The translations under genes were made by a program, and so were the position numbers. The notes beneath the pieces are model-generated. The model was not told the origin of the DNA. It saw only the letters and a list, made by a program, of their open reading frames with translations, and did no database searches. A stretch of DNA of 64,000 nt from Chloroflexota bacterium (GTDB taxonomy: Bacteria; Chloroflexota; Limnocylindria; P2-11E), in NCBI GenBank assembly GCA_027310565.1, contig DAIDAP010000037.1:124001-188000 (forward strand), in the 5' to 3' direction. Shown here piece by piece: positions 31,476 through 34,862 of the stretch; within the stretch, counting starts at the first letter, position 1; the number at the start of each line of letters is the position of its first letter.

Positions 31476-31909
31476 CTGTTCCTCGTCTCCTCGATGAGCC
31501 AGCGGAGCGCGGTCTCGTAGCCGGCCACCCCTTCGCCGATGACCTGCCGCGCCACCACGTCCGCCAGGTAGCTGTGGTGTCGGAAGGGCTCCCGCTTCGT
31601 CACGTCGCTGACGTGGACCTCGACCACCGGGAAGGCGCACGCCGCGACGGCGTCGCGCAGGACGATGGACGTGTGCGCGAGCCCGCCCGGATTCATGATG
31701 GCACCTTCCGAAACGGCGTGCGCTTGCAGGAAGTCGATGAGCGCCCCCTCGTGGTTGGACTGGTACGCGACCAGCTCCGCGCCGGCCTCGGCCGCGATCC
31801 GGCGGCAGCGCTCCACCACTTCGCCGAGCGTCGTGGTGCCGTAGATCCGCGGCTCGCGCGTCCCGAGCGTGTTCAGGTTGGGGCCGTTGACGAGCAGGAA
31901 GCGCTTCAT
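31472..31909 (-). CDS. aroQ: 3-dehydroquinate dehydratase type II
   Basis: Third step of the shikimate pathway. 145 residues from ATG 31909, which overlaps the aroKB stop. Motifs: LLVNGPNLNTLGTREPRIYG with the catalytic tyrosine, AYQSNHEGALIDFLQ, MNPGGLAHTSIVLRDAV and the conserved VEVHVSDVTKREPFRHHSYLADV. Type II, dodecameric, not the AroD type. Confidence 0.97.
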   Translation of the reverse strand: MKRFLLVNGPNLNTLGTREPRIYGTTTLGEVVERCRRIAAEAGAELVAYQSNHEGALIDFLQAHAVSEGAIMNPGGLAHTSIVLRDAVAACAFPVVEVHVSDVTKREPFRHHSYLADVVARQVIGEGVAGYETALRWLIEETRNR

Positions 31910-33486
31910 CTGCCCTCCACCACCCGCGCGGCACGCTCGAGCGCGCGCGCGCCGACGTCGGTCACCTCGCTGAAGCGTCCCACACGCCGGGGCAGGATCC
32001 AGCGCACCGTCCCGCGCCGGGCCTTCTTGTCCCGCTCGAGCAGCGCCCAGGCGGCGCGCGGGATGCGGGCCCGCACCGGCAGCCCGGCACGGCGCAGCAC
32101 GCGCTCCAGGCCGGCGCGCAGCGAGGGCTCGGCGAGCCCGAGCGACTCGGAGAGCGCCGCCGCGTAGACCATGCCGATCGCGACGGCCTCGCCGTGCGTG
32201 ACGCGGTACTCGCTCGACGCCTCGCAGGCGTGGCCCATGGTGTGGCCGAAGTTCAGCAGCGCGCGCGGCCCCCGCTCGCGCGGGTCGGCCGTGACGACGG
32301 ACGCCTTCACCTCCGCCGCGAGCGTCACCGTCGTCAGCGTGGCGCCGAGCTCGCCACGCAGCACGCCCTCGATCCCGCGCTCGACGTGCGCGACGGCCGC
32401 GCGGTCGCACAGGAACGCGCACTTCACGACCTCCGCGAGCCCCGAGGCGAGCTGGCGCCGCGGGAGGCTGCGGAGCGCCGTGACGTCGGCGAGCACGGCG
32501 TCGGGGTCGTGGAACGCGCCGACGAGGTTCTTCCCGGCGGCGATGTCGATCGCGCTCTTGCCGCCGATCGCGGCGTCGACCATCGCGAGCAGGGTCGTCG
32601 GGACCTGCGCGACGCGGATCCCGCGGGCGTACGTCGCGGCCGCGAAGGCGGCCGCGTCGCCGAGCGCGCCCCCGCCCAGCGCGACGACGCCGCCGTCGCG
32701 TCCGACGCCGCCCGCGGCAAGGGCCTCCCAGATCCGCGCCACGGCGCGCACCGACTTCGCGCGCTCGCCCGTCGGCGCGCGGACGGCGGTCACGGTCATG
32801 CCGGCGCGCTCGAGCGAGCGCCGCACCTGCGCGCCGTGGAGGCGCAGGGCGGTCGGCTCGCTCACGAGCGCGACGCGGCCGCGCCACCCGAGATCGGCGA
32901 GGTGCGCGCCGACCCGCGCGTGGAGCCCGGCGCGGATGAGCACCGGATAGGACGGCGCACCGACGTCGATGCGCACGCCCCTGCCCGCCGCGAGCCAGGC
33001 GACGATGGCGCGCGCCGTCTGCGGCGGGGTGAGCCCGTCGACGTCGAAGCCCACGTCCACGTCGCGGTAGGCGGCTCGGCGCGTACGGAGCGCCTGCCGC
33101 GCGCGCTCGACGGGCGCCAGGTCCTGGTATGGGCGCTTCCCCATCGTCGCCGCGATGCCGCCGGAGATCCGCTCGAGCGAGCCGCGGAGCCCGACGACGA
33201 GCCCGAGCTCGCGCATGCGCGCGCGGTTGCCCGGCCGGATCGCGGTGCCGCCGCCGGTGTCGACCACGGTCCACGCCGGTGTCGGCCGCAGCGACGCGAG
33301 GACGCGCGTCTCGAGGTCCCGGAAGGCCTCGATGCCGTCGTCCTCGATGATCCGGCGGTTGCTCCTCCGCGCGCGGCGCTCGGTCGCGCGGTCGATCTCG
33401 ACGACGTCGGCGGCGAGGAGCCCCGCGAGGAGCGGCGCGAGGGTGCTCTTGCCGACCCCCGGCGGGCCGACGAGGAAGAGGTACAC
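31906..33486 (-). CDS. Shikimate kinase / 3-dehydroquinate synthase fusion (AroKB)
   Basis: 526 residues joining two shikimate-pathway enzymes. Residues 1 to about 170 are shikimate kinase: P-loop FLVGPPGVGKSTLAPLLAG, VVEIDRATERR (D at the shikimate site), DDGIEAFRDLETRVL, TGGGTAIRPGNR and a lid MGKRPYQDLAPVERARQAL. Residues about 170-526 are dehydroquinate synthase: GERAKSVRAVARIWEALAAGGVGRDGGVVALGGGALGDAAAFAAATYARG, VPTTLLAMVDAAIGGKSAIDIAAGKNLVGAFHDPDAVL, LASGLAEVVKCAFL and LNFGHTMGHACE with metal ligands. Both halves look intact. The catalysed steps are not consecutive, so fusion likely serves co-expression. Confidence 0.96.
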   Translation of the reverse strand: MYLFLVGPPGVGKSTLAPLLAGLLAADVVEIDRATERRARRSNRRIIEDDGIEAFRDLETRVLASLRPTPAWTVVDTGGGTAIRPGNRARMRELGLVVGLRGSLERISGGIAATMGKRPYQDLAPVERARQALRTRRAAYRDVDVGFDVDGLTPPQTARAIVAWLAAGRGVRIDVGAPSYPVLIRAGLHARVGAHLADLGWRGRVALVSEPTALRLHGAQVRRSLERAGMTVTAVRAPTGERAKSVRAVARIWEALAAGGVGRDGGVVALGGGALGDAAAFAAATYARGIRVAQVPTTLLAMVDAAIGGKSAIDIAAGKNLVGAFHDPDAVLADVTALRSLPRRQLASGLAEVVKCAFLCDRAAVAHVERGIEGVLRGELGATLTTVTLAAEVKASVVTADPRERGPRALLNFGHTMGHACEASSEYRVTHGEAVAIGMVYAAALSESLGLAEPSLRAGLERVLRRAGLPVRARIPRAAWALLERDKKARRGTVRWILPRRVGRFSEVTDVGARALERAARVVEGR

Positions 33487-33489
33487 GCG

Positions 33490-34638
33490 CTACCGGCGCA
33501 GGTCGATCGGCGCGAGGCGCGTCCGGTAGCGCTCGACGGACGCGCAGAGGTCGTCGACCGTGTCACAGCCGAACTTCTCGCAGAGCGCGTCCGCGAGGAC
33601 GAACGCGAGCATCGCCTCGGCGACCACCCCGGCGGCGGGCACGACGCAGACGTCGCTGCGCTCGACGTGCGCCGGGGACGGCGCTCCGGTGCGCAGGTCC
33701 GCCGACGGGAGCGGCCGCATGAGCGTCGAGATGGGCTTGAACGCGACGTCCGTCCGCAGGTCCTCGCCGTTCGTCATCCCGCCCTCGAGGCCGCCGGCGC
33801 GGTTGCGCTCGCGCACGAAGCGTCCGTCGCGCACCCCGATCGGATCGTGGACCGCGCTCCCCCGTTCGCGGGCCGCCGCGAAGGCGTCGCCGACCTGCAG
33901 GCCCTTCGCGCTCTGGATCGAGAGCAGCGCCTGCGCGATGCGCCCGTCGAGCCGCCGGTCCCACTGCCCCACCGCGCCCAGGCCGGGGATCACCCCGCTG
34001 ACCCGGAGCGCGACGACGCCCCCGAGCGTGTCGCCGGCGTCCCGCGCCGCGGCGATCGCGGCGATCATCGCCGCGCTCTTCGCCGGATCCGCGCAGCGCA
34101 CCTCCGACGCCTCGACCGCCGCCTCGTCGAAGGTCGGCTCGCACTCCACCTCGCCGATGGACCGGGTCTCGCTCCAGACCTCCATGCCGACGACGCGCAG
34201 GAGCGCCTTCGCCACGGCCCCGCCCGCGACGCGGGCCGCCGTCTCGCGGGCGCTCGAGCGCTCGATGACGTCGCGCACGTCCTCGTGGCCGTACTTCAGC
34301 GCGCCGGCGAGGTCCGCGTGTCCCGGCCGCAGACGCGTCACCGCGGCGGGCGGGTCGGCGACGGGCTCGGGGCTCATGACGCGCTCCCAGCTCACCGCGT
34401 CGCGGTTGGCCACCTGAAGCGCCACCGGCGCCCCGGTGGTGCGGCCGTGCCGCACGCCGCCGAGGATGACGACCGCGTCGCGCTCGATGCGCTGGCGCGC
34501 GCCGCGCCCGTACCCGAGCTGCCGCCGCCGGAGGTCGACGTCGATCTCCGCCGCCGTCAGCGCGAGGCCCGCGGGGACGCCGTCCACGACCGTCACCAGC
34601 CCCCTGCCGTGCGACTCGCCCGCGGTCAGCAGCCTCAT
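33490..34638 (-). CDS. aroC: Chorismate synthase
   Basis: Last common step of aromatic biosynthesis, FMN-dependent. 382 residues from ATG 34638. Motifs: LTAGESHGRGLVTVVDGVPAGL, RQLGYGRGARQRIERD, LRPGHADLAGALKYG, ERSSARETAARVAGGAVAK, GGLEGGMTNGEDLRTDVAFKPIST. The ATG overlaps the stop of the 75-codon repeat frame (ATGA). Three bases separate its stop from the aroKB start. Confidence 0.97.
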   Translation of the reverse strand: MRLLTAGESHGRGLVTVVDGVPAGLALTAAEIDVDLRRRQLGYGRGARQRIERDAVVILGGVRHGRTTGAPVALQVANRDAVSWERVMSPEPVADPPAAVTRLRPGHADLAGALKYGHEDVRDVIERSSARETAARVAGGAVAKALLRVVGMEVWSETRSIGEVECEPTFDEAAVEASEVRCADPAKSAAMIAAIAAARDAGDTLGGVVALRVSGVIPGLGAVGQWDRRLDGRIAQALLSIQSAKGLQVGDAFAAARERGSAVHDPIGVRDGRFVRERNRAGGLEGGMTNGEDLRTDVAFKPISTLMRPLPSADLRTGAPSPAHVERSDVCVVPAAGVVAEAMLAFVLADALCEKFGCDTVDDLCASVERYRTRLAPIDLRR

Positions 34639-34862
34639 GTCGGCTCCGCCGCCATGAGCCGAGGACCCATCCCTCGCAGGGGCTCCGCCCCTGCCACCCC
34701 GTACGCGCGCGCCGCGCCACCGGTCACCGACCCAGACGACGGTCCGCTCACCGGCTCCGCCGCCATGAGCCGAGGACCCATCCCTCGCAGTGGCTCCGCC
34801 CCTGCCACCCCGTACGCGCGCGCCGCGCCACCGGTCACCGACCCAGACGACGGTCCGCTCAT
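34635..34862 (-). CDS. 75-residue open frame made of two 37-residue repeats, coupled to aroE and aroC
   Basis: ATG 34862 overlaps the aroE stop (ATGA) and TGA 34637-34635 overlaps the aroC start (ATGA). The product is SGPSSGSVTGGAARAYGVAG followed by AEPLRGMGPRLMAAEP, twice over, with junction valine and final threonine. The two inner differences between copies are one silent base change in this frame and the last base. I do not recognise the sequence: glycine- and alanine-rich, no membrane segment. It may be a translated spacer only, or a chance open frame. Other frames through the repeats are open too, so coding is not proven. Confidence 0.4.
   Translation of the reverse strand: MSGPSSGSVTGGAARAYGVAGAEPLRGMGPRLMAAEPVSGPSSGSVTGGAARAYGVAGAEPLRGMGPRLMAAEPT
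34641..34862. repeat. 111-bp tandem direct repeat, two copies
   Basis: Copies at 34641-34751 and 34752-34862 are identical at 109 of 111 positions; the differences are G/T in the middle (first copy CAGGGGCTCC, second copy CAGTGGCTCC) and the final base. 111 is 37 codons, so copy number leaves the frame unchanged. The first copy carries a perfect hairpin CAGGGG-CTCCG-CCCCTG that the second has lost through the G/T change. I see no further copy elsewhere in the window. Confidence 0.95.

Follow-up and report, generated by a model that had tools for sequence, protein, structure and literature searches.

Two nearly identical 111-bp copies lie between aroE and aroC in the window, as we call the whole 64,000-nucleotide stretch of DNA analysed here, and the question raised by this locus is what such a repeat is and how an operon carries it between two of its genes. 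The original prediction held that the unit may be either a translated spacer element, which inserts at stop-start junctions and carries the coupling through, or a novel small repeat protein.

The upstream gene, aroE (shikimate dehydrogenase, Pfam PF08501 and PF18317; 34859..35671, minus strand), and the downstream gene, aroC (chorismate synthase, Pfam PF01264; 33490..34638, minus strand), have intact frames of 813 and 1,149 bp, respectively. The first translated copy, on the aroE side (34752..34862, minus strand), starts with ATGAGCGG and the second, on the aroC side (34641..34751, minus strand), with GTGAGCGG. They are identical at 109 of 111 positions (TRF score 435 in the 64-kb window); the one internal difference (G/T at 34680) is silent in the minus-strand frame, giving CCC or CCA, both Pro, while the other concerns the boundary base (C/T at 34751), with ATG opening the first translated copy and GTG the second. 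Together they form a mini-ORF of 75 codons (MSGPSSGSVTGG...MAAEPT*; 34635..34862, minus strand) that is stop-start coupled to both neighbours: its ATG (34862-34860) overlaps the aroE stop (34861-34859) in the left DTGA site (ATGA; 34859..34862, minus strand; D is A, G or T throughout), and its TGA (34637-34635) overlaps the aroC ATG (34638-34636) in the right one (ATGA; 34635..34638, minus strand), which makes a 4-nt overlap at each end. The frames flanking the mini-ORF are open for 365 codons upstream and 382 downstream. On recheck, the copies, their identity, the doubly coupled frame and the silent substitution agreed exactly with what had been described originally, and the tandem copy at this junction is far beyond chance. 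Elsewhere in the window, positions 31906-33486 hold one fused reading frame for shikimate kinase and 3-dehydroquinate synthase.

Layout and dispersal of the element

Read 5′ to 3′ on the coding strand, the element consists of a left part that varies from insertion to insertion, a first hairpin (H1), a linker of 15-25 nt and a second hairpin (H2). H1, the family-wide core of the element, is a GC-rich palindrome with GTGG directly on its 5′ side and the core GGGTNGNAGGGGCNNAGCCCCTGCGA; it is intact in the aroC-side copy (GGGTGGCAGGGGCGGAGCCCCTGCGA; 34674..34699, minus strand) and carries one stem mismatch in the aroE-side copy (GCCACTGC; 34785..34810, minus strand).

Copies were counted genome-wide from pattern and DNA searches, with many low-scoring matches (below about 35 bits) and those with 3-4 mismatches (L234, L237, L238) treated as chance. 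The host's own genome, a MAG-like assembly of 2.79 Mb in 38 contigs, holds other, partial copies at 84-88% identity (C38:19967, C38:88185 and C25:572), a hairpin-only copy (C1:48614) and remnants of the right end (C5:9945, C29:24158, C27:15043 and C15:70418). The DNA search for the unit matched 16 of 61 genomes, including ones of the same genus and family, with the match in G032 lying in coding sequence and looking like chance. H1 with up to three mismatches was found in 20 of the 28 genomes of the host's GTDB family, a count that includes a low background according to the reversed-pattern control. At one mismatch, it occurred in six of the nine family members within a 400-genome sample of the phylum, and in none of the 391 genomes of that sample outside the family. 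The search at other gene junctions which the original prediction had proposed thus yielded dispersed copies both in the host genome and in its relatives, and the tandem arrangement (2 x 111 bp) was seen in the window copy only. An assembly artefact or a purely local duplication, as the near identity of the tandem copies and the 38 contigs of the assembly might indicate, has hardly any probability left, since independent copies with the same arithmetic are present at other junctions and in the assemblies of other species.

In regard to orientation, a hand count gives about 25 of the 28 strict H1 loci that point the same way as the gene downstream of them; the exceptions are L089, L092 and L085, the last of which precedes non-coding DNA. 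The genes downstream of the element are unrelated to each other (aroC, accD, argH, a menC-like gene and others). A minority of copies consist of H1 only and are located uncoupled in intergenic DNA (L070, L072, L084, L085, L087 and L224).

One genome (G008) holds about 18 H1-like hairpins, many of them GGGCCGCGGGGGCGGAGCCCCCGCGA and several at gene junctions, which form an amplified subfamily. In two genomes of the genus g3 (L071 and L076), a lysine-rich ORF has H1 inserted in frame among its first codons. At L085 (G013) and L074 (G016) (match at 1500), H1 immediately precedes, on the 5′ side, non-coding DNA that is conserved and structured; this stretch reads GGCTATCGAGT...ACTCGATAGCC followed by GCCGGTTCCCTAGGG and is possibly an undescribed structured RNA. 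Rfam returned no match for these two loci, for L235 and L057, or for the aroE-aroC junction.

Empty sites and the frame across the junctions

In the closest relative (G003), aroE and aroC meet in a plain 4-nt GTGA overlap (TTGCCGCGGTGAGGCTC), and at L096, L099 and L101 in a plain ATGA overlap (CCGGTATGAGG), in each case with no element in between, while the window reads CCGGTATGAG-(element)-CCGACATGAGGCTG; the element is absent from this junction in all relatives examined. At tsaD, the junction has no element in G003, G002 and G013. At accD, G003 and G002 again have none, G001 and G004 carry one, and G000 retains an in-frame remnant of H2. The menC-like junction lacks the element in G016, G020, G025, G026, G000 and G027 and carries it in G018, G019, G009, G022 and G013, where the empty G016 is close to the filled G018, their downstream proteins being 94% identical. 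A single site can be filled in one species and empty in a close one, which, as read from presence and absence, points to both insertion and loss.

At these four orthologous junctions, the relatives mostly have -4 overlaps. Because about one third of co-directional junctions are -4 overlaps already (17 of 52 in the window, by a rough gene call), a preference for DTGA is suggested rather than proven, and the comparison suggests a target preference moderately above background. The left and the right D often differ, for example with GTGA on the left and ATGA on the right, so that a duplication of TGA or DTGA is the most that the borders indicate.

For an inserted frame to open at the left DTGA and close at the right one, the distance from site to site must be 2 mod 3. 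The DTGA-to-DTGA mini-frames, found in 16 copies, are all open and all 2 mod 3, and they come in 14 distinct insert lengths (32, 35, 44, 47, 50, 62, 71, 74, 80, 89, 104, 113, 143 and 224 bp), the last being the window insert (2 x 111 + 2). Were the lengths independent, 14 of 14 in phase would correspond to a P of about 2 x 10^-7, a value that is weaker in reality owing to shared ancestry and to a set built by following matches. The copy on C27, bounded by CTGA, is 2 mod 3 as well. There are four other copies in which the upstream gene ends in the left-border DTGA. L073 (at argG) and L258 each form an in-frame fusion with the gene downstream, the frame of L082 (nusG-rplK by sequence) ends in TAG directly before the ATG, and in L226 the right end is out of register. 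At least ten further copies show a read-through mode, in which the frame of the upstream gene crosses the element and stops at the next DTGA (G018, G019, G009, G003, G021, G017, G005, L233 and others).

Non-coding or frame-breaking copies, which had been named beforehand as evidence against a coupling spacer, do exist in the form of the minority of uncoupled intergenic H1-only copies and of L226; there are none among the 16 DTGA-to-DTGA copies. The spacer element itself, carrying the coupling through stop-start junctions, appears well supported at the sequence level by four junctions with empty sites, by the 2 mod 3 inserts and by the read-through copies. The other half of the original prediction, in which the aroE-aroC interval would encode a small repeat protein, fared differently. 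The 75-codon frame is open and its sole internal difference silent, as would fit such a protein, but the peptide differs between copies, H1 reads as GVAGAEPLR in most copies and as RGGRGGAPA in others depending on the junction, the shortest mini-frames have only 11-12 codons, and the relatives examined have no copy at aroE-aroC, all of which makes the protein very improbable. With an unconserved peptide and an H1 whose reading frame changes, what counts is the frame rather than the protein; the open path, not the peptide, is, as far as the sequences tell, the selected property.

The hairpin over the start codon

H2 (CTCATGGCGGC-GGA-GCCGACATGAG; 34632..34660, minus strand) has a 3-nt loop, and its 3′ arm includes the downstream start codon, at this locus that of aroC, together with the first bases of codon 2. 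In the 23 H2 copies, which were aligned free of gaps with 13 pairs scored, the spacing from loop to start codon is constant at exactly 6 nt. The covariation score is 0.391; shuffles give 0.146 (sd 0.020) and slid partners no more than 0.134, the copies being related and the shuffle ignoring their kinship. Two-sided changes occur at nine of the 13 pairs. None of the 23 copies leaves the first base of the start codon unpaired (T-A in 16, C-G in 6, T-G in 1), and the 5′ arm covaries with ATG/GTG and with codon 2, having T for ATG and C for GTG with the single T-G exception. The elements of G022 and G013 stem from one insertion because both have the same nested insert inside H1, and their H2 sequences differ by three two-sided changes, the one from ATG to GTG among them. 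The folding signal of the single 111-nt unit is weak (z of -1.1 for the coding strand and -2.6 for the other strand), and covariation was therefore used in place of single-sequence folding; in the aroC copy, H2 is not the minimum-energy fold, an alternative fold being predicted as more stable.

The nested insert of about 31 nt (GCAGGGGCAGGGGCCCCTGGGCACGAAGTGA) is located just upstream of the menC-like start (L263 in G013, L264 in G022); it ends in GTGA and restarts the frame, as a second-level coupling insertion. In the C38 copy L056, a 30-nt in-frame partial duplication of H2 is found upstream of the start codon, again with a length change that is a multiple of three.

Two hairpins, the second of them covarying with the start codon, and the co-orientation of most strict copies with the downstream gene could also be explained by a cis-regulatory RNA, that is, a leader resembling an attenuator or riboswitch, which gene starts have recruited and keep for regulation rather than through mobility. 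The unrelated downstream genes, the flips of presence between close species at the same junction and the lack of an Rfam match argue against such an RNA, and we consider it quite improbable. Alternatively, a selfish palindromic repeat of the REP, MITE or RPE kind could insert anywhere, with in-frame copies being the survivors of purifying selection; DTGA would then not be preferred, and H2 would have no function. H1 is REP-like in having GTGG beside the palindrome, H1-only copies occur in uncoupled intergenic spots and among the opening codons of an ORF (L071 and L076), and -4 overlaps are common (17 of 52). However, in the 23 H2 copies the element ends on the right at the downstream start codon, at the constant 6 nt from the loop, covariation links H2 to that codon and to codon 2, and all four orthologous junctions compared are mostly -4 overlaps in the relatives, so that the selfish repeat seems an unlikely explanation.

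Proposed mechanism and known systems

The reading we prefer, with a probability of roughly 80%, sees in the repeat a MIRU-like mobile element that is non-autonomous, would insert at DTGA overlaps and would keep the operon translationally coupled. It builds on direct observations, namely insertions against empty sites, DTGA at both ends, an open 2 mod 3 mini-frame and an H2 covarying across the start codon. A ribosome ending aroE would restart on the overlapping ATG of the mini-ORF, translate it through H1 and H2 while unwinding the latter, stop at the TGA overlapping the aroC ATG and re-initiate on aroC. In such a way the coupling of the operon would be preserved across the 224-bp insertion, and the 111-bp unit, being in frame, could be duplicated in tandem without loss of coupling. 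We propose that, with coupling preserved, insertions would be close to neutral, and essential operons could therefore tolerate them. H2 would mask the downstream start and open when the ribosome arrives, and it may, at about even odds, block independent initiation there.

More tentatively, the element could be a portable translational-coupling module, in which the 5′ arm of H2 is matched to the start and second codon of the target, either through insertion guided by base pairing or through selection for the start-codon hairpin and mini-ORF as a coupling switch. Guide sequences direct insertion by base pairing in IS200/IS605 elements. If the module exists, either role of H2, as an insertion guide or as a selected coupling switch, would be new among MIRU-like elements.

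MIRUs are mobile repeats which insert at start codons and contain an internal ORF coupled at -4 spacing (Supply et al. 1997, as described in PMC12548453). The likeness is one of behaviour: both are short repeats that go into start codons or DTGA overlaps in the orientation of the operon, occur in tandem and bring along an ORF whose coupling to the next gene has -4 spacing, and our element shows DTGA insertion, an ORF overlapping both neighbours, co-orientation and, in the window only, tandem copies. MIRU lengths of 77, 53 and 101 bp are also 2 mod 3. On the other hand, the element has two palindromes, one of them over the start codon, whereas MIRUs are reportedly without obvious dyad symmetry; it belongs to Chloroflexota rather than to mycobacteria, and many of its copies are read through from the upstream gene. 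In the literature searched, no MIRU-like elements were found outside mycobacteria.

Like REP/RAYT sequences (PMC3733652), the element has a short palindrome that is GC-rich and lies next to a G-rich tetranucleotide (GTGG), and is dispersed, often between co-directional genes. It differs from them in having GTGG, GTTG or GTCG beside the palindrome and no GTAG tag (PMC3733652), as well as in its low copy number and a right end fixed at start codons, and membership was rejected on the tag and on the RAYT (Y1) transposase. The REP transposase/Y1 domain (PF01797) was not found in 31 genomes, many of them incomplete, while control genomes matched. Other orphan palindromic repeats likewise come without a transposase. 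RPEs are palindromic mobile elements inside ORFs, kept in frame and translated with the host genes (PMC10969869); our element shares the palindromes and the frame, but RPEs are internal to ORFs and it stands at stop-start overlaps, mostly with C-terminal read-through and junction frames, L071 and L076 being in first codons. Finally, in the RNA-unfolding model of translational coupling, a hairpin over the downstream start is opened by the upstream ribosome (PMC12548453). H2 over the downstream start resembles this arrangement, with the difference that a single mobile unit here brings in both the hairpin and the upstream mini-ORF.

In the sources found, MIRU-type insertion into stop-start overlaps is described only for mycobacteria, and the element would be a second such system, in an unrelated lineage. 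The start-codon hairpin would connect the RNA-unfolding model with the re-initiation model in a way that can be tested, and the insertions at gene junctions could serve as a comparative assay of translational coupling. Many insert lengths in one phase would constitute natural evidence for selection on an unbroken ribosome path across operon junctions.
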